From Micromonospora sp. WMMD1102 (GTDB taxonomy: Bacteria; Actinomycetota; Actinomycetes; Mycobacteriales; Micromonosporaceae): a stretch of DNA of 64,000 bases. Of the stretch, positions 5,992-37,754 are shown in pieces. Position numbers and translations under genes: made by a program. Below the pieces are notes generated by a model that was not told where the DNA came from, made no database searches, and saw nothing but the letters and a program-made list of their open reading frames with translations. The DNA is taken from contig NZ_JARUBN010000001.1 in assembly GCF_029626265.1 (NCBI RefSeq), positions 5,583,001 to 5,647,000 on the forward strand, in the 5' to 3' direction. Within the stretch, counting starts at the first letter, position 1. Every line of letters begins with the position of its first letter.

Positions 5992-7409
5992 GGCCGCTCC
6001 CCCGTCGCCGGGGCAGCGGCAGCGGTGGAACCGGTGCCGGCGAGGCGGAGCAGCAGGTCCTTGACCTCGGTGGCCCGGTAGCGGTCCCGGGCCGCCGAGG
6101 GATCCGAGCAGAGCAACACCGGGGCGTCCGCCGGGTCGGCGGGCAGCCGGCCGTGCGAGCCGCGTACCGCCCGCGCGCCCGCGTCCAACCCCACCACGCT
6201 CATCAGATAGCGCATCCCGAGCTTCTTGCGGGCCAGCGCCACCGCCGCCCGGCGCTTCGCCGCGCCCGGCGCGGCCGGATCGAAGAACAGCTCCGCCGGG
6301 TCGTACCCGGGCTTCCGGTGGATCTCCACCAGCCGGGCGAAGTCCGGGGCGCGGGCGTCGTCGAGCCAGTAGTAGTAGGTGAACCAGGCGTCCGGCTCGG
6401 CGACCAGCACCAGCTCACCGGCGCGCTCGTGGTCGAGCCCGTGCTCGGCCTTGCCGGCGGCGTCCAGCACCTCGGCCACCCCGGGCAGCCCGGCGCAGAG
6501 CTTCGCCACCGCCGGCACGTCGGCCGGGTCCCTGACGTAGACGTGCGCGATCTGGTGGTCGGCGACCGCGAACGCCCGGGAGGTCCACGGATCCAGGTAC
6601 TCCATCCCGTCCTGGGTGTAGACCCGGAGCAGCCCCTCGGCCCGGAGCAGCCGGTTCACGTCCACCGGCCGGCTCGCCTCGGTGATGCCGTACTCCGACA
6701 GCACCACCACCGTCGCGTTCCGGGCGGCGGCCGCGTCCAGCAGCGGGCCGAGCACCCCGTCGAGTTTGGTCGCGGCAGCCGCCGCCTGCTCCGACGACGG
6801 GCCGAAGCGTTGCAGGTCGTAGTCGAGGTGCGGAACGTAGACCAGGGTCAGGTCGGGATTCTTCTCGGTCATCACCTGCACGGCGGCCCGGCAGATCCAC
6901 TCCGACGACGGCAGCCCCGCCCCCGGACCCCAGTACGTGAACAGCGGGAACCCGCCCAGCTTCCCGGTCAGCTCGTCGTGCAGCTCCGGCGGGTCGGTGT
7001 AGCAGTCCGGTTCCTTGCGACCGTCGGCGTAGTAGATCGGCCGGGGCGTCACCGTCCAGTTCACGTCGGCGCCCATCGCGTACCACCAGCAGACGTTGGC
7101 GACCGTGTAGTCCGGGCGCTGCCGGCGGGCCGCCTGCCAGACCTTCTCCCCGCCCATCAGCGCGTGGTGCTGGCGCCACAGGAACACCTCGCCCAGGTCC
7201 CGGAAGTACCAGCCGTTGCCGACGATGCCGTGCTCGGCCGGAAGTACCCCGGTGAGCAGGGTCGCCTGCGCCGAGCAGGTCACCGCCGGCAGCACGGTGC
7301 CGAGTTCGGTCTGGCAGCCGGCTTCGGCCAGGGCGCGCAGCCGGGGCATCCGGGCCAGCAGCCGGGGGGTCAGCCCGACCACGTCGACAACCACAAGCTG
7401 ACTAGCCAT
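5988..7409 (-). CDS. eboF: EboF-like alkaline-phosphatase-superfamily phosphodiesterase
   Basis: 473 residues of the nucleotide pyrophosphatase/phosphodiesterase branch of the alkaline phosphatase superfamily. The N-terminus VVDVVGLTPRLL carries a metal Asp, PAVTCSAQATLLTG contains the nucleophile Thr/Ser, and VLSEYGI and VADHQIAHVYV supply later metal ligands. No signal peptide, so it should act in the cytosol. It overlaps EboE by 8 bases and the prenyl synthase by 4. In ebo clusters EboF is the phosphatase-like member. The natural substrate is unknown; a phosphorylated prenyl or cyclitol intermediate would fit the neighbours. Confidence 0.85.
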   Translation of the reverse strand: MASQLVVVDVVGLTPRLLARMPRLRALAEAGCQTELGTVLPAVTCSAQATLLTGVLPAEHGIVGNGWYFRDLGEVFLWRQHHALMGGEKVWQAARRQRPDYTVANVCWWYAMGADVNWTVTPRPIYYADGRKEPDCYTDPPELHDELTGKLGGFPLFTYWGPGAGLPSSEWICRAAVQVMTEKNPDLTLVYVPHLDYDLQRFGPSSEQAAAAATKLDGVLGPLLDAAAARNATVVVLSEYGITEASRPVDVNRLLRAEGLLRVYTQDGMEYLDPWTSRAFAVADHQIAHVYVRDPADVPAVAKLCAGLPGVAEVLDAAGKAEHGLDHERAGELVLVAEPDAWFTYYYWLDDARAPDFARLVEIHRKPGYDPAELFFDPAAPGAAKRRAAVALARKKLGMRYLMSVVGLDAGARAVRGSHGRLPADPADAPVLLCSDPSAARDRYRATEVKDLLLRLAGTGSTAAAAPATGERP

Positions 7410-8700
7410 CGTGCCTCCTCGGCGCGGATTCGGGGGTGGCCGGACCGGTCGGGTCGGCCGGGTCGGCGATCGCCGGATCAGCGCCCGCCGGGTCGGACAG
7501 GGCGCCGGTGATCCCGGTCGGTTCGCCGGGGACCTCGGTCAGCCCGAGCGCGACCAGTTCGTCGCGGGCGAAGGCCAGCTCGGCGGCGATCCCGCCGGCC
7601 AGCTCCGGCTCCGATCCCGGGCGCTGCCCGGCCGGCAACACCCCCCAGGTGTACGTCTCGACGTCCAGGTGGTCACAGCCGGCGGCCGGCCCGGCGAACA
7701 ACTCCCGCAGCGCCGCCCGGAGTACCGGGACCGTCGACTCCAGCGGTGCGGCGGGCACGGCGTGCAGCGGCACGTGGTAGTGCACCCGCCAGGCGCCGGG
7801 CAGGCCGGCGGCCAGCGCCGCGTCCAGGTCGTCGGCGGCGTGCGCCGGGTCGGCCGGGTCGGCGGCGTGCGCGCAGGCTTCGGTACGGGTCTGGTGCAGG
7901 AAGCGCGGCTCGACGTACCCGCGCAGGTCCTCGGCGGCGGCGACCGGGTCGGCGGCGGCCAGCGCGGCCGAGACCTGCACCTTCACCACCGGCAGCCCGG
8001 CGGCGCGCAGCCGGCCCAGCGCCTCGGCCGGGTCCTCCCAGGCGCAGGCGAGGTGGGCCAGGTCGAGGCAGATGCCGAGCCGGTCGGTGTCCACCCGGGA
8101 CAGCGCCTCGACCGCCTGGCCGGTCGACTCGACCACGCAGCCGGGCTCCGGCTCGAAGCCGACCCGCACCGCCCGGCCGGTACGCCAGGCGACCTGGGTC
8201 AGCCCGGCGGCCAGCTCGTCCAGCACCCGGGCCGCCCGGTCGGCCTGGCGCCGCTCCCACGGCTCGCGCCAGGCCAGCGGCAGGGTCGAGACCGAACCCC
8301 GGACGGCGTCGTCGGGAAGCAGGTCGACGAGTACGGTGGCCAGGTTGAGGGTGTAGACCAGCCGCTCCCGGGTGGTCCAGTCGGGATGGTAGACGGCCTG
8401 CTTCACCACCGGGGCGTGGAAGGACTGGTAGGGAAAGCCGTTCAGGGTCACCACCTCCAGCCCCCGGGCAACCAGTTCGGCGCGGAGCTTCCGCCGGGTC
8501 TGCGGGTCGGCGGCGAGCCCGGCCGCCACCGGCGCGGCCAGCCACAGCCCCAACCCGAGTACCCCGGCACCCAACCGCTCCCGGATCGGCACCGCGTACG
8601 TGTCGAGCTGCCCCAGCACCCCGGCCAGGTCCTCGGCCGGGTGCACGTTCGTGCAGTAGCTCAGGTGCACCGTCTGCCCGTCGGCGTGCCGCAGCCGCAT
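7402..8700 (-). CDS. eboE: EboE, TIM-barrel metabolite-traffic protein
   Basis: 432 residues. The start MRLRHADGQTVHLSYCTNVHPAEDL is characteristic of EboE, an AP-endonuclease-2/xylose-isomerase-like TIM barrel. Metal-site-like segments are GFEPEPGCVVES, ICLDLAHLACAWED, KVQVSAAL and LDVETYTWGVLP. In Nostoc the ebo genes are needed for moving a scytonemin precursor to the periplasm; the biochemical reaction is unknown. The final ~40 residues are rich in ADPA repeats and look like a disordered tail. It shares one base (TGATG) with the upstream EboB gene. Confidence 0.9.
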   Translation of the reverse strand: MRLRHADGQTVHLSYCTNVHPAEDLAGVLGQLDTYAVPIRERLGAGVLGLGLWLAAPVAAGLAADPQTRRKLRAELVARGLEVVTLNGFPYQSFHAPVVKQAVYHPDWTTRERLVYTLNLATVLVDLLPDDAVRGSVSTLPLAWREPWERRQADRAARVLDELAAGLTQVAWRTGRAVRVGFEPEPGCVVESTGQAVEALSRVDTDRLGICLDLAHLACAWEDPAEALGRLRAAGLPVVKVQVSAALAAADPVAAAEDLRGYVEPRFLHQTRTEACAHAADPADPAHAADDLDAALAAGLPGAWRVHYHVPLHAVPAAPLESTVPVLRAALRELFAGPAAGCDHLDVETYTWGVLPAGQRPGSEPELAGGIAAELAFARDELVALGLTEVPGEPTGITGALSDPAGADPAIADPADPTGPATPESAPRRHDG

Positions 8701-9596
8701 CAGCTGCCGCCCCGCAGGATCGAGTTCCCCTCGAAGGTGCCGGCCGCCCCGCCGGCCGGACCGTTCCCGCCGGCCGGGGCGTCGCCGTCGGCCGGGGCGT
8801 CCGCGTCGAGTTCCAGCCGGCCGGACTGGCCGTAGAACTCGACCGGGTTGCGCCAGAGCACCCGGTCGACGTCGTCGTCGTCGAAGCCGGCGGCCAGCAT
8901 CGCCTCCCCGGTGGCCCGGGTCAGCAGCGGATCCGACCGGCCCCAGTCGGCGGCCGAGTTGACGAGCATCCGCTCGGTGCCGTACCTCCGGAGCAGCTCG
9001 ACCATCCGCGGCGGCGACATCTTGGTCTCCGGATAGATGGAGAAGCCGAGCCAGCAGCCGCTGTCCCGGACCAGCGGCACGGTCACCTCGTTCAGGTGGT
9101 CGATCACCACCCGCCCCGGGTCGAGGCCGGACTCGGCGACCACCGCCAGGCTCCGCTCGGTGCCCCGGGCCTTGTCCCGGTGCGGGGTGTGCACCAGCGC
9201 CGGCAGCTCGTGCTCGACCGCCAGGGCGAGCTGGGCGGCGAAGACCTCGTCCTCCTCCGGCGTCATCGAGTCGTAGCCGACCTCGCCGACCGCCACCACG
9301 CCGTCCTTGTCCAGATAGCGGGGCAGCAGGTCGAGCACCTCCCGGCAGCGCGGGTCGTTGGCCTCCTTCGGGTTCAGCGCGATCGTGGCGTGGTGCCGGA
9401 TGCCGAACTGGCCGGCCCGGAACGGCTCCCAGCCGACCAGCGCGTCGAAGTAGTCGACGAAGGAGGCGGCGCTGGTCCGCGGCTGGCCGAGCCAGAACGC
9501 CGGCTCCACCAGGGCGCGTACCCCGGCGGCGGCCATCCGTTCGTAGTCGTCGGTGGTCCGCGAGGTCATGTGGATGTGCGGGTCGAAGATCCTCAT
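8700..9596 (-). CDS. eboB: EboB, TatD-like metal-dependent hydrolase
   Basis: 298 residues from ATG (MRIFDPHIHMTSRT). HIH is the usual amidohydrolase metal pair; GEVGYDSM, LVHTPHRDKA and VIDHLNE supply the other ligands, and NSAADWGRSDP the last Asp. The family hydrolyses phosphoester or amide bonds. Because the start overlaps the EboA stop (TGATG) it is likely translationally coupled. The tail after ~265 (DADAPADGDAPAGG) is low complexity. An upstream in-frame extension overlaps EboA and is not protein-like, so I rejected it. Confidence 0.88.
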   Translation of the reverse strand: MRIFDPHIHMTSRTTDDYERMAAAGVRALVEPAFWLGQPRTSAASFVDYFDALVGWEPFRAGQFGIRHHATIALNPKEANDPRCREVLDLLPRYLDKDGVVAVGEVGYDSMTPEEDEVFAAQLALAVEHELPALVHTPHRDKARGTERSLAVVAESGLDPGRVVIDHLNEVTVPLVRDSGCWLGFSIYPETKMSPPRMVELLRRYGTERMLVNSAADWGRSDPLLTRATGEAMLAAGFDDDDVDRVLWRNPVEFYGQSGRLELDADAPADGDAPAGGNGPAGGAAGTFEGNSILRGGS

Positions 9597-32827: not shown

Positions 32828-33401
32828 GATCCACTCCAGTTCTCACCTCGACGACGCGGTCCTACCAAGGAGGTTTCCACCTGGGGCCGGCGCGTGCGGC
32901 CATGATCGCCCAATCGGAGCCGGACCCGGCCACGATCGACCACGACCGGTCCGGCGAATCCGGACACCGGGGCCGGTCCGGGCACGGAATTCGGCTCGTT
33001 CGGGATTCACCATCCGACCGCGCTACCCAGGACCCGTCGGCCAGGTCTCCGAGCGGCGAAACCCTCACCTGGCGCCATTCTTCGACCGCCCGCCGATACG
33101 GCATTCCCCGTTCGGCCGACCCGTGTCGGACCAACGACCTGAAGCCTGCCACCTTCGGACAACTCCTGTCAGGTTGGCGTCAGGGCGCTTGAGCTGCCCA
33201 CAGTGGACTGATAAACCAGTGACCTGGTCGGAAATTCCCATCCGGCGACGACCGCCCTGACGAGCAGCAGCAACCGAATGCTTTCCCGGACACTTCCCCG
33301 GTGCGGGGAAATGCCAGATCCGCCATACCGTTTCCTTGCTGAACGCCCCGCCAGCAGCACGAATCCCGCCTCCGCCAGTTTCGCAACAGGAGCTTGATCT
33401 G
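32828..33401. other. 574-base intergenic region before the A-B-C operon
   Basis: Divergent spacer with no convincing gene. It is less GC-rich than its surroundings, particularly 33000-33250. A small TTCCCC-GGTGC-GGGGAA hairpin occurs at about 33293-33309. I see no clear sigma70 promoter; AGGAG at ~33389 serves gene A. Confidence 0.5.
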
Positions 33402-33794
33402 ATGGATCCCATCACCGTCGTGGTGACCGCTCTGGTGGCCGGTGCCGCGGCCGGGGTCTCCGGTGCCGCGTCGACGGCCGTCCAGGATGCCTACACCGGC
33501 CTGGTGGCCCTGGTGCGACGCCGGCTCGGCGGCGGCCACGGCGACGACGGTCCCGGCGCGGAGATCGTGGACGCCTACCGGGCGGATCCGGTCGGCCAGT
33601 ACGGCCGGCTGGTGGCCGAGTTGACCACGGCCGGCGCCGGTCACGACCGCGACCTGGCCGAGGCGGCGCTGCGGGTGCTCGCCCTGACCTTCCCGGCCAG
33701 CGGGGAGTCGGCCGCGCGTTACACCACGGACCTCCGCGGCGCCCAAGGTGTCTACCTGGGCGATCACGGCACCCAGACCAACACGTTCTCCTGA
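33402..33794 (+). CDS. Gene A: small helical protein ending in a RHIM-like amyloid motif
   Basis: 130 residues, ATG behind AGGAG. Residues 1-40 (MDPITVVVTALVAGAAAG..., then VQDAYTGLVALVRRRLG) form a Gly/Ala-rich hydrophobic helix with small residues spaced like a glycine zipper (G14, G18, G21), followed by an amphipathic helix. ~50-105 is helical and acidic. The last 20 residues hold LRGAQGVYLGDHGTQTNTF, closely matching the motif in the next gene (LRHAQGVLIGDHGRQRNVF). The V-x-x-G core with polar N/Q positions resembles RHIM and bacterial amyloid signalling (BASS) motifs. I infer an effector recruited by motif-templated assembly; effector activity is unproven. Confidence 0.75.
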   Translation: MDPITVVVTALVAGAAAGVSGAASTAVQDAYTGLVALVRRRLGGGHGDDGPGAEIVDAYRADPVGQYGRLVAELTTAGAGHDRDLAEAALRVLALTFPASGESAARYTTDLRGAQGVYLGDHGTQTNTFS

Positions 33795-33795
33795 C

Positions 33796-35160
33796 ATGGC
33801 AGCTCGACCCGAGGGCGCCGCCCGGCCCGAGCCGACCGGCACCCCACCCGCATCCGCCGGCACCCAACCCGCATCCGCCGATACGCAGCCCGCACCCGCC
33901 AGCAAGCAGCCCGAGCCCGTCGGCACGCACGCCGAGCCGGCAGGCACGCCGCCGGAGCCGGACAGGCCGCACCGGGGGGTCAGCCTGCCGGGGCAGCCGG
34001 GCCCGATCCTGCGGCACGCCCAGGGAGTGCTGATCGGCGACCACGGCCGGCAGCGCAACGTGTTCCGGGTGAACCTGCCCCGCAGCGTCCGGATAGCCCT
34101 GCTGAGCACCCTGGCGCTTGTCGTCCTCGTCGGTGCCGGTGTGCTCACCGTGACCTGGGTGCTCCCGCAGTTCGCGCCGACCTACAAGACCGAGTTCCTG
34201 ATCGACACGACCGCGGCCGGCACCGCCGAGGGCGTCGCCACCATCGCCGACTCGCTCAGGAAGGTGGTCGACAACTCCGGTGACAGCGACGCGCTGGCGC
34301 TGCGCCGCTTCGGTGGCGAGTGCGGCGCGCAGGACAACACCAGCCAACTAGTCGGCTTCGGCACCGGCAACCGGCAGGAGATCACCGACGCGGTCGGCAA
34401 CATCGGCCAGGGCGCCCAGGCGACGCTGCAACGCGGCATCGTCGAGGCCGTCGCCGACTTCTCCAAGCCCTTCGCCCGGCGGGCCAAGCAGGTCAACCGG
34501 ATCATCGTGGTGACCCGCAACGGCACCGACGCCTGTGACAGCGACACCGCGTTCGTCCAGCAGCAGATCAGCAGCCGGATCCGGGCCGCCGGCCTGGCCA
34601 TCGAGTTCCGGATGATCGGCTACCAGGTGCGTGACGACCAGCAGGAGCAGCTCACCCAACTCGCCACCGGCACCGGCGCCCCGGAGCCGATGTTCGTCGA
34701 CACCCCCGGGCAACTGGACGCGGCCCTGGACTGGTTCACCAACATCGAACCGGTGCTCCGCAACGCCAAGGAGATCGTCGACATCCTCAACCCCGCCGTC
34801 GAGCAGGTAAACAGCGCGGTGGCGGCGGTCGGCACCGGACGGCTCGACACGGCCGAGCGCACCCTGGACCGGGCCCGCGCCGCCATCGCGAGCACCGACA
34901 CCGAGTTCGAGGACCTCCAGGGTCGGGCCAAGAACGCGACGGCCCGGGACATCCACGCCCGGGCGTCCCGGCTTCGCGCCCAGCAGCAACGGGTGGTGAA
35001 ATCCGCCGACGACCTGGTCGGCACCGCCCGGTCCGGCACACCGCTGGGGCCGAAACACGCCGCCTTCGAGCGGGTCGCCACGGACTACAACAACGAGGTG
35101 AAGGCGATGAACGAGGCACTGGCCGCGCTCCGCGCCAAGGCACCGAGGAGTACCCGATGA
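33796..35160 (+). CDS. Gene B: membrane-anchored vWA-like protein with cytosolic RHIM-like motif
   Basis: 454 residues. Starts one base after gene A (TGACATG), so coupled. Residues 1-70 are Pro/Ala/Thr-rich; 72-90 carry LRHAQGVLIGDHGRQRNVF; 98-121 is a transmembrane helix; from ~133 a vWA-like Rossmann fold (FLIDTTAAG, DALALRRFGGECG, GIVEAVADFSKPFA, NRIIVVTRNGTDACD, EFRMIGYQV). The MIDAS DxSxS is degenerate (DTTAA). The C-terminal ~120 residues are helical/coiled (ERTLDRARAAIAS, ARASRLRAQQQRVV). Cytosolic motif and external vWA suggest a transmembrane sensor. The vWA part is paralogous to gene C. Confidence 0.75.
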   Translation: MAARPEGAARPEPTGTPPASAGTQPASADTQPAPASKQPEPVGTHAEPAGTPPEPDRPHRGVSLPGQPGPILRHAQGVLIGDHGRQRNVFRVNLPRSVRIALLSTLALVVLVGAGVLTVTWVLPQFAPTYKTEFLIDTTAAGTAEGVATIADSLRKVVDNSGDSDALALRRFGGECGAQDNTSQLVGFGTGNRQEITDAVGNIGQGAQATLQRGIVEAVADFSKPFARRAKQVNRIIVVTRNGTDACDSDTAFVQQQISSRIRAAGLAIEFRMIGYQVRDDQQEQLTQLATGTGAPEPMFVDTPGQLDAALDWFTNIEPVLRNAKEIVDILNPAVEQVNSAVAAVGTGRLDTAERTLDRARAAIASTDTEFEDLQGRAKNATARDIHARASRLRAQQQRVVKSADDLVGTARSGTPLGPKHAAFERVATDYNNEVKAMNEALAALRAKAPRSTR

Positions 35161-36347
35161 GCACCGTCCCCGGCCGCCCGGCTGGACGTCGACGGCGCTA
35201 CCTGCTGGTCGTGGCGGTGGCTGTCGTCGCCGTGCTCGGGGGCGGTGCCTTCCTGGTGGTGCGCTCCATCCCGGAGTACCGCACCGCGCTGCTCGTCGAC
35301 ACCTCGGTGGACCCGGCGGGCGGCGACTTCGCCGAGATCGCCGCCGCGGTGGGCGCCGCGGCGCAGAACTCCGCCGACGACGACGCGCTGTCGCTGCGCC
35401 GGTTCGGCGGTCGCTGCGCCGACGCCGGCAACACCGCACAGGTGGTGGAGGTCGGCACCGGCCGGGCCTCGGAGATCGCCGGGGCGGTACGCGGGCTCAC
35501 CCCCGACGGCCAGCCGACGCTGCTCGCCGGCATCCTCGCGGCGATCGACGACTTCGCCGACCCGTACCCCTTCCGGGGCAGCAAGGGAAACCGGATCGTC
35601 GTGGTCTCCCGACACGGCGTCGACGGGTGCGACCCCGATCCCGCCAAGGTGGCCGCCGCGATCCGGGACCGGGTCGGCGAAGCCGGACTCGACCTCGACT
35701 TCAGGTTCGTTGGCTACCAGGTGCCGGCCGAGCAGCGCCCGGTGCTGACCCAGGTGGCCTCGGCGACCGGCGCACCGGAGCCGACCTTCCCGGAAACCGC
35801 CGACGATCTCACCGCCGTGCTCAAGCAGTTCACCATCCCGCGCTCGCCCGACGCCGCCCCGGTGGCGATTCCCACCCCCGACCCCACCGCCGACTGGAAG
35901 CCGTACCGGAACACCGGGGGTGGTTACGCCCTGCGCTACCCGCCCAACTGGTCCACCCAGGAGTGCGAGACGGACCTCTGGCTCGCGCACGTCCCCGAAC
36001 TGCTGCCCGGATGCCTCGGCACCGACTTCTTCTTCTTCCTCGCCTGGGTCCGGGTCCAGGAGCCCGACCAGGCCTTCAGCGGCCCCTACGACGAGGAGAC
36101 CTTCGACGACATCGAGGTCCGGGACGTCACCGTCGACGGCGTCGCCGGCAAGCGCCACTCCGCCGTCTGGGCGAAGGAGGACATCATCGGGCGGGCCGCC
36201 GTGGGCACGGCTGTCGTCCGGTACGTCGTGCCGGCCAACGGACGGGTGTACACGATCAGCTACGAGAACGATCCGGACTCGGCCGGCGCGGCCGACCTGC
36301 TGGAGAAGTTCGACCTGATGGTCACGAAGACGTTCAGTTTCAGCTGA
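35157..36347 (+). CDS. Gene C: membrane-anchored vWA-like protein with C-terminal PsbP-like domain
   Basis: 396 residues; ATGA overlap with gene B. Basic N-terminus (RRRR), signal-anchor helix ~14-36, vWA-like domain ~44-225 (LLVDTSVDPAG, DALSLRRFGGRCAD, GILAAIDDFADPYPF, NRIVVVSRHGVDGCD, DFRFVGYQV) aligning throughout with gene B, including two Cys positions (GGxC and DxCD). Residues ~245-396 are a PsbP/lipoprotein-like domain (YRNTGGGYALRYPPNW, VDGVAGKRHSAVW, VYTISYEND). No amyloid motif. It is probably the extracytoplasmic partner of gene B. The stop codon lies inside a hairpin repeat. Confidence 0.75.
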   Translation: MSTVPGRPAGRRRRYLLVVAVAVVAVLGGGAFLVVRSIPEYRTALLVDTSVDPAGGDFAEIAAAVGAAAQNSADDDALSLRRFGGRCADAGNTAQVVEVGTGRASEIAGAVRGLTPDGQPTLLAGILAAIDDFADPYPFRGSKGNRIVVVSRHGVDGCDPDPAKVAAAIRDRVGEAGLDLDFRFVGYQVPAEQRPVLTQVASATGAPEPTFPETADDLTAVLKQFTIPRSPDAAPVAIPTPDPTADWKPYRNTGGGYALRYPPNWSTQECETDLWLAHVPELLPGCLGTDFFFFLAWVRVQEPDQAFSGPYDEETFDDIEVRDVTVDGVAGKRHSAVWAKEDIIGRAAVGTAVVRYVVPANGRVYTISYENDPDSAGAADLLEKFDLMVTKTFSFS

Positions 36348-36410
36348 GGTGTAAGGAAGGGCCCCTTCTTATCGCTTTTTGTATAAGAAGGGGCCCTTCC
36401 TTACACCTCA
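36345..36410. repeat. Perfect 28-bp hairpin repeat, bidirectional terminator
   Basis: TGAGGTGTAAGGAAGGGCCC continues to CTTCTTAT and is perfectly repeated in inverse after the 10-base loop CGCTTTTTGT. It lies between convergent genes C and dgt and includes the stop codon of gene C. Related copies occur at 49459 and 50589, so this is a dispersed palindromic family, probably also ending transcription from both sides. Confidence 0.85.
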
Positions 36411-36494
36411 GACATCCGTGCACACAGCCGGGCCAGCGGACCACGCGACCGCGGCGTCTGCCGCCCGCCGAGGGCCGCGGCGGTCGGCGCACGC

Positions 36495-37754
36495 TCAACG
36501 GGGGCCGGAGCCGAGCCGTTGGTGCCAGGCGACCGCCGCCGGGTCGGTGAGCGAGGCGACCTGGTCGACCACCACCCGCAGCCGGGCGGCGTCGTCCGGC
36601 GCCGCCTTCCACAGTGGCGCGAAGACCGGGTCGAGCGCGTCCGGCGCCCGGTTCAGCAGCGCCGTCACCAGCTCGGTCAGGATCTCCCGCTGCCGCTCGT
36701 ACCACTGGAGGGCGCCGGGACGCCGCATCACGTAGCGCAGCGCCATCCCCTTGAGCAGCGCACACTCGGCGCGGATCCGCCGGGGTACGACGAGTTCGGC
36801 GGCGTACCGGCACAGCGGGCCGGTGCCGTGCCGCCGCTCGGTCGCCTCGACCGCCGCCGCCACGAAGCGCCCGGTCAGCACGCTTGTGCTCGCCTTCAAC
36901 GCGGCCAGCGCCCGGTGACTGCCGTCGTACTCGCGCAGCGGGGCGAGCACCGGGTCGGCGAGCAGCCCGGACAGCACCTCGGCCAGGTAGTCCGCCGACT
37001 CGGTCGAGTACCGCCCGGCGACGTCGGCGCAGAGCGCGGCCCGCTCGTCCGGGTCGCCCCGCAACTGGGTCAGGCGCAGCCGCAGGTAGCCGCCGTGGAT
37101 GCCGTCCTCCACGTCGTGCACCGAGTACGCCACGTCGTCGGCCCAGTCCATCACCTGGGCCTCCAGGCAGCGTACGTCGCCGTCCGGGGCGCCCCGGCGC
37201 AGCCAGTCGAAGGTGTCGGCGTCGTCGGCGTACACCCCGAACTTGCGCTGCCCCGGGCGGCGTGGCCACGGGTACTTGCAGACGGCGTCCAGGGCGGCCC
37301 GGGTCAGGTTGAGCCCGGCGGAGGTGCCGTCCGGGCCGTACACCTTGGCTTCCAGCCGGGTCAGTACCCGCAGTGTCTGCGCGTTGCCCTCGAAGCCGCC
37401 GCAGTCGGCGGTGAGCACGTCGAGCGCGGCCTCGCCGTTGTGCCCGAACGGCGGGTGCCCGAGGTCGTGCGCCAGCCCGGCCACGTCCACGATGTCGGGG
37501 TCGCAGCCGAGCCGGCCGCCCATCTCGCGGGCGATCTGGGCGACCTCCAGCGAGTGGGTGAGCCGGGTCCGGAGGAAGTCGTCGGTGCCGGCGGTGTGCA
37601 CCTGGGTCTTGGCGGCCAGCCGCCGGAACGCCGCCGAGTGCAGCACCCGGGCACGATCCCGCTGGTACGGGCTCCGCCCGTAGCCGCTGTCCTTCGCCGG
37701 CTCGGCCACCCGGCGCTCCGCGTCGGGCTGGCTGAGCACGTCACCGATCCTCAC
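36495..37754 (-). CDS. dgt: Deoxyguanosinetriphosphate triphosphohydrolase-like protein
   Basis: 419 residues from GTG (VRIGDVLSQPDAERR). HD-domain phosphohydrolase: RLTHSLEVAQIAREM, GLAHDLGHPPFGHNGE (HD), EAQVMDWADDVAYSVHDVEDG (late Asp). The N-terminal PAKDSGYGRSPYQRDRARV and QVHTAGTDDF are typical of bacterial Dgt. It hydrolyses dNTP to deoxynucleoside and triphosphate. The final ~60 residues recur as a broken copy at 41469-41690. Confidence 0.93.
   Translation of the reverse strand: MRIGDVLSQPDAERRVAEPAKDSGYGRSPYQRDRARVLHSAAFRRLAAKTQVHTAGTDDFLRTRLTHSLEVAQIAREMGGRLGCDPDIVDVAGLAHDLGHPPFGHNGEAALDVLTADCGGFEGNAQTLRVLTRLEAKVYGPDGTSAGLNLTRAALDAVCKYPWPRRPGQRKFGVYADDADTFDWLRRGAPDGDVRCLEAQVMDWADDVAYSVHDVEDGIHGGYLRLRLTQLRGDPDERAALCADVAGRYSTESADYLAEVLSGLLADPVLAPLREYDGSHRALAALKASTSVLTGRFVAAAVEATERRHGTGPLCRYAAELVVPRRIRAECALLKGMALRYVMRRPGALQWYERQREILTELVTALLNRAPDALDPVFAPLWKAAPDDAARLRVVVDQVASLTDPAAVAWHQRLGSGPR

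Follow-up and report, generated by a model that had tools for sequence, protein, structure and literature searches.

Three adjacent genes, here called A, B and C, lie on the forward strand of a 64,000-nucleotide stretch of the Micromonospora sp. WMMD1102 genome (the window; contig NZ_JARUBN010000001.1, positions 5,583,001 to 5,647,000), and their sequences indicate that they probably form a membrane-spanning signalling cassette of the amyloid type that operates without an NLR. The reading builds on what is directly seen: a motif shared by the products of A and B, the likeness of this motif to an amyloid peptide, an operon of B and C, the pairing of A and B motifs within loci, and the presence or absence of the genes as a unit. 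The motif and the effector, A, are of a known kind; what is new is the receptor B, in which a vWA-related outside part stands in place of an NLR.

The motif common to A and B

The shared motif reads LRxAQGVxxGDHGxQxNxF. A first-pass annotation, made by a model from the letters alone, had placed it at the end of A and ahead of the only membrane helix of the neighbouring B, and its coordinates agree with ours; it had counted 14 identical residues of 19, and our recount gives 13. The best of 60 shuffles of both proteins reached 10. In six-frame local alignments of the tail of B with the open reading frame segments of 40 amino acids or more around the locus, A was the best match among 142 segments (score 68; next 45). 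Further, a degenerate DNA pattern for the motif occurred twice in the 8.9 Mb genome, both times at A–B, and was absent from the reversed control. A chance match was rejected on the shuffles, the six-frame ranking and this genome-wide count. The two DNA copies start 277 bp apart in the same orientation, an arrangement that would suit a short duplication. They are identical at 37 of 57 nucleotides and use the same codon for 7 of the 13 shared residues; the motif pair is therefore not a recent duplication, and this candidate was rejected as well.

When compared with one member of the BASS3 family, the Frankia peptide VDLRDAKGVQVGDGNVQINRF, the A motif was identical at 11 of 21 positions and the B motif at 10, and the best of 2000 shuffles of A reached 9. 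The match of A supports the earlier description of the motif as RHIM-like. According to parts of the published accounts, this Frankia peptide binds Congo red and gives aggregate-type Fourier-transform infrared spectra (PMC8086366), and BASS3 is a bacterial relative of the fungal PP and animal RHIM motifs (PMC12261475; PMC7889193). The arrangement by which BASS motifs are recognized is present at A–B, in which the products of neighbouring genes carry the same motif, C-terminal in A and in the N-terminal tail in B. The A–B motif thus resembles the BASS3 and RHIM motifs, and amyloid formation and seeding are predicted for it.

A resembles BELL effectors. Its structure model is all-helical, with low confidence, and hydropathy marks a hydrophobic N-terminal stretch (residues 4–22). 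A-like proteins were present in 7 of 246 genomes of a class-wide sample. Four relatives of A adjoin STAND-type genes, in which we found Pfam AAA_16 (G000:C1:1101402), Pfam NPHP3_N (G000:C1:1456509), Pfam NB-ARC (G006:C12) and, by eye, the start of an ATPase (G229). The members of three of these four pairs share a motif, each pair its own (VSGGQGAVIGEHNTVTQNY with SGGQGAIIGDYATVFQSF; LREAKGVQVGDYSSMNINF with LRGATGVQIGDYPQMHLHV; GAQGVQVGDGNTQTNTF with GAHGVQVGDHNRQQNQ), and no clear motif match was seen between the relative in G006:C12 and its NB-ARC neighbour. The BELL-like look of A and the pairing of its relatives with STAND-type genes are consistent with A as the effector end of an amyloid pair.

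Two of these pairs, both of BELL and STAND genes and each with its own motif, lie in the genome of the window itself (G000:C1; L079, 3403–5036, and L078, 3502–6821), so that a single cell holds several pairs that seem to be different. At L070 and L074 (G783 and G812), a BELL-like gene lies beside a gene for a protein with two membrane helices, on opposite strands. Both gene products end in or next to GVQ[IV]GDHNTQHN[TR]F, and no NLR was seen within about 1.5 kb.

Gene B, its paralogue C and their distribution

The stop codon of A and the ATG of B (33796) are separated by one base, and the ATG of C at 35157 overlaps the end of B (35160) by four bases. Pfam and NCBIfam gave no usable annotation for A, B or C (sub-threshold matches only, for B) and PADLOC gave none; none of the three matched a nucleoside triphosphatase domain in B, even at E values as high as 1. 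A MoxR AAA ATPase is absent from the cassette, since A, B and C are all that the stretch missing from sister genomes contains (neighbours read by eye). B consists of a Pro/Thr-rich tail, the motif, a membrane helix, which is the only one by hydropathy, and the remainder of the protein. In C, the N-terminus is short and basic and is followed by one clear membrane helix early in the protein; a weaker hydrophobic stretch lies at residues 282–300, and part of the protein is homologous to B, with 43% identity across B residues 98–315.

A profile built from B matched residues 57–225 of a protein with a Pfam VWA domain (8.3e-15, at 45–220) at 5.5e-11. Two cysteines, 71 or 75 residues apart, are present in the vWA part of B at all 19 B loci that we found (L054 has two more), and none lies within 40 residues ahead of the membrane helix, which fits a disulfide outside the membrane. 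The sequences fit a topology in which the vWA-like part of B is predicted outside the membrane and the motif tail in the cytosol. In a fold comparison, the distal helical domain of the B model was similar to the four-helix bundles of chemoreceptor ligand-binding domains. This likeness is a lead only, because helical bundles match one another easily; further, unlike in Tar, Tsr and PcaY, a vWA-like part and one membrane helix link the predicted bundle of B to a cytosolic motif.

B was present in 2 of 61 genomes of a set of relatives, in 6 of 300 of its own family and, for a second actinomycete family, in 11 of 341 (4/200 when that family was sampled before), the genome of the window being included where it belongs. 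Three of 394 genomes in a class-wide sample matched the profile; the match in one of them (G367) is to an ordinary vWA protein, which we left out of the B loci. Further named loci are those of Amycolatopsis azurea and Actinokineospora terrae, and a third, in Plantactinospora endophytica, is identical to a locus already counted among the relatives. The total is 19 loci including the window, in which L003 and G006 are one locus, counted once, and L054, where B is broken (open frame of 376 amino acids; profile match ending at 257), was counted as found, unmended. In the one plasmid collection searched, B was not found. Orphan C-like paralogues in G000, G581, G567 and G580 stand outside this count, as the match covers their vWA part only and no motif was seen. 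The one in G000 (L019, G000:C1:4030000-4044000, at about 7963–9237) lies downstream of a DnaK-like gene, and the other three are similar to it.

C follows B at 19/19 loci, with the four-base overlap of stop and start at 16. The genes that flank the cassette lie together without it in two sister genomes, G003 and G005; the alignment of the window to L098 stops at 32978 and resumes at 36522. Similarly, positions 7279–10534 of L003 have no counterpart in its sister genome G001. In these sister comparisons the cassette is gained or lost as a whole, as expected of a functional module. C as the constant partner of B, and a motif class that varies between loci, go beyond what the first-pass annotation had described.

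Table 1. Positions in the window of the three genes and of the parts of A and B
Feature	Position	Strand	Description
Gene A	33402..33794	+	ATG 33402, TGA 33794; small BELL-like protein of 130 residues that ends in a BASS3/RHIM-like motif; proposed effector
A motif copy	33732..33788	+	Residues 111–129
Gene B	33796..35160	+	454-residue single-span membrane protein with P/T-rich tail carrying the motif, membrane helix, vWA-like domain and helical bundle; proposed receptor
B motif copy	34009..34065	+	Residues 72–90, nine residues ahead of the membrane helix
B membrane helix	34093..34149	+	Residues 100–118, by hydropathy; a helix in the structure model too
B vWA-like domain	34183..34698	+	About residues 130–301, with conserved Cys176 and Cys247; profile match; low model confidence here
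B C-terminal helical bundle	34705..35136	+	About residues 304–447; predicted local distance difference test (pLDDT) mostly 80–92
Gene C	35157..36347	+	Membrane helix and vWA-like paralogue of B, without the motif, with an additional C-terminal part
Cassette	32979..36521	+	Stretch absent at the same site in a sister genome (alignment to L098; L100 similar)

Matching of motifs within loci

A small gene on the same strand, the product of which ends in the motif class of the local B, was found at 12 of the 19 loci, adjoining B at eight and following C at four. This partner was the top six-frame match to the B tail at 11 of the 12; the A of the exception, L052, was found by reading. The motifs are RHIM-like in the window, L003, L033, L034, L050 and L051, of a Q-x-x-R/G-D class in L017, L048, L052, L053 and L054, and of a GGDNxGIxSTGD class in L032. 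No sequence common to these classes is evident, which is also what part of PMC8086366 reports for signalling amyloids. A literature search with the string QAGRD returned nothing relevant, so the Q-type motif is given no BASS number here. At L033 and L034 both partners are without the N-x-F end (at L033, GDHGYQDIRL in A and GDYGRQVVRL in B). By eye, the A domains are of four kinds: BELL-like, SEGWQ type, two-membrane-helix type and L032 type.

A different candidate partner was found at L049. A TIR protein (Pfam TIR_2, 1e-9; G728:C123, 2900–4015, minus strand), encoded on the strand opposite to B and two genes away from it, has AKGLQIGDGNTQHNTF at its end, and the B of this locus carries the RHIM-like SHGFVIGDNAHLTN; the six-frame score of the TIR motif is low. 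TIR domains are already known to accompany BASS motifs, as part of PMC7889193 describes. The contig of L049 ends within C, and the same genome encodes a BELL protein with a RHIM-like motif (L066) on a stretch cut as at a contig end. A further gene for a vWA-like membrane protein lies just downstream of the TIR gene.

The summed score of the own pairs was 707 compared with a permutation mean of 380, and none of 200,000 permutations was as high, a figure that shares both the relatedness of the loci and a bias by construction: class agreement within loci arises partly because a neighbour was called A when it matched. A narrow pattern scan of called genes, which misses several A genes, saw no neighbour of a non-matching class. 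The matching of A and B motifs appears striking in kind, but there are few events behind it.

Along with that bias, several further observations weigh against the cassette as we read it. Within the Q class, 17 of 120 permutations were as high as the own pairs (2/720 in the RHIM class), and the own A scored highest at only 7 of the 12 loci. About three switches of motif class are counted across the tree of B from 12 loci (four among 19), and a pairs test found one independent pair on well supported branches and two on all, too few for significance. The co-variation that the first-pass annotation had proposed as a check is visible in motifs that differ between loci and match within them, but the changes that are independent number only about three. 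Unrelated segments score as high as 50 (in L061), so that L033 (41) and L034 (50) would not stand out by score alone; there, the case for the partners depends on their BELL domain, on the position at the C-terminus and on how the sequences align. The RHIM core tetrad is (I/V)Q(I/V/L)G. It is not intact in the pair of the window (VYLG and VLIG), and some relatives have VQIG or VQVG.

The vWA assignment of B has points against it as well. A direct Pfam scan of B finds no VWA, so that the vWA label given in the first pass holds through the profile link to a Pfam VWA protein and not through Pfam itself. The metal-ion-dependent adhesion site (DxSxS) looks degenerate by eye, with the D kept and the second S not. 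AlphaFold runs with 4 and 2 rows modelled the vWA part of B poorly, with low confidence, as they did the whole of A. No vWA chain was among the best 50 matches listed in the fold comparison, which covers mainly the helical part; given the poor model of the vWA part, this is no evidence against a vWA fold. A sequence search of the PDB with the B profile gave nothing below 0.04; its matches included, at about 0.5, the vWA region of calcium-channel alpha-2/delta.

Finally, at 6 of the 19 loci (L004, L005 and L060–L063) B has a motif and the fetched stretches hold no linked partner. The first-pass annotation had held that homologues with the motif in one partner only would speak against it: its expectation agrees with the 12 loci with a small matched neighbour and with the TIR protein of L049, and not with these six. 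In L004 (Amycolatopsis azurea, 7629–9224), B has two copies of a QA[GA]RDIRG-type (Q-type) motif and two extra N-terminal membrane helices, a layout that looks as if effector and receptor parts were fused. B of L005 carries a further motif, ETVIQTGSFRGRVIS. Each of the genomes of L060–L063 (G799, G764, G812 and G783) encodes an unlinked BELL or two-membrane-helix protein that ends in or next to GVQ[VI]GDHNTQ[TH]N[TR]F.

Proposed signalling, alternatives and known systems

In the signalling that we propose, B and its paralogue C would lie in the cytoplasmic membrane with their vWA-like domains outside, and the cytosolic tail of B would display the BASS3/RHIM-type motif. A signal from outside, which may be a ligand, envelope damage or phage contact, would cluster or rearrange B, together with C. 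The concentrated B motifs would then nucleate a cross-beta stack and recruit the matching C-terminal motif of A, as the motif family suggests. The BELL-like, partly hydrophobic N-terminal domain of A would act on the membrane, most likely resulting in cell death or dormancy, by analogy with BELL proteins. In L049, a relative of the system, a TIR domain appears to occupy the place of the effector. We infer fibril formation, the outside signal, the direction from B to A and the outcome, taking the stacking of motifs, the capture of A and its action from the BASS and BELL literature.

The within-locus pairing requires only a specific contact between A and B, and the motif core deviates from the RHIM tetrad. 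Both would suit a tag for homotypic docking, by which A would join B at the membrane with no amyloid being formed and would be a regulator or co-receptor subunit of B–C. We consider such a tag unlikely, since the A motif closely resembles a peptide with amyloid-like aggregation (PMC8086366, in part), the relatives of A sit with STAND-type proteins of matching motif, which is a known BASS arrangement, and the absence of a common sequence among motif classes is itself a trait of signalling amyloids in that account.

The roles might instead be reversed, the B tails holding A inactive at the membrane until loss of B or loss of the outside signal frees it, as with an antitoxin. The sequence data leave the direction unfixed, and in the sister genomes that were compared the three genes are present or absent jointly. 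However, known BASS pairs, as presented in part of PMC7889193, have the N-terminal motif in the sensor and the C-terminal motif in the effector, and we regard sequestration as improbable. That the shared motif is only a passive by-product, left when neighbouring genes underwent gene conversion or a short duplication, is highly improbable despite the closeness of the two copies, because, besides their divergence in nucleotides and codons, A lies after C and not beside B at 4 of 12 loci and yet matches, and matches recur in three different motif classes.

The amyloid-type cassette that we favour is most like the BASS3 signalosomes of BELL proteins and NLRs (PMC7889193 and PMC8086366, each in part), in which a small BELL-like effector with a C-terminal motif adjoins a gene with the same RHIM-like motif in its N-terminal tail; in both, the genes are adjacent and found in actinomycetes, and TIR effectors also occur with BASS motifs. 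Unlike in BASS3/NLR pairs, the partner in the cassette is a predicted membrane-spanning vWA-like protein in which an NTPase was not detected, always followed by a second such protein, C. The fungal PP motif and the RHIM of the animal necrosome belong to a motif family said to be homologous to BASS3 (PMC12261475 and PMC7889193, in part), from which the pair of the window differs in its incomplete tetrad. MoxR-vWA ternary conflict systems, which have effector-associated domains and are outlined in part of PMC8195603, share with the cassette their occurrence in multicellular bacteria and a vWA protein with matched adaptor modules. In contrast, the cassette has no MoxR ATPase and no VMAP or iSTAND, its vWA part is predicted outside the membrane, and its adaptor is a short motif rather than a folded domain. 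The open subset of PubMed Central, which excludes Dyrka 2020, yielded no description of a membrane-spanning vWA-like protein in the place of an NLR. The known carriers of PP and RHIM motifs are NLRs, kinases and adaptors, and we know of none with a vWA sensor outside the membrane.

Whether bacterial signalling amyloids act in NLR-independent pathways was posed as an open question in a 2021 review (PMC7889193, in part). The cassette is a small three-gene candidate that makes this question testable, and its natural motif-class variants allow parts to be mixed. If the reading is true, prion-like signal transduction in bacteria reaches transmembrane receptors that sense the cell exterior, and the motif serves as a portable adaptor, open to exchange without a change of receptor. 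With this cassette in soil bacteria, immune signalling of the prion-like kind would seem to extend beyond the NLR receptors from which it is known. A broader reading, on which we are evenly divided, is that actinomycetes have a family of NLR-independent, membrane-spanning amyloid receptors, comprising the vWA-like B with C and at least one further ectodomain type, in which exchangeable motifs would template BELL, two-membrane-helix or TIR effectors for death or dormancy, with sensor, motif and effector freely recombined.

A BELL gene was also observed next to another type of non-NLR membrane protein in two genomes, G265 (L084 and L091; G265:C44) and G131 (L086 and L092; G131:C26). Proteins of this second type have an N-terminal RHIM-like motif, one hydrophobic stretch and about 120 amino acids beyond it, and were found in 5 of 200 genomes sampled from the family. 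In the other three genomes (L093–L095), no BELL neighbour was present in the fetched stretch (about 1.5 kb on each side), and the first motif was eroded in 3/3. The erosion of the motif where a BELL neighbour was not seen supports, as a small natural comparison, the view that the motif serves the partner.
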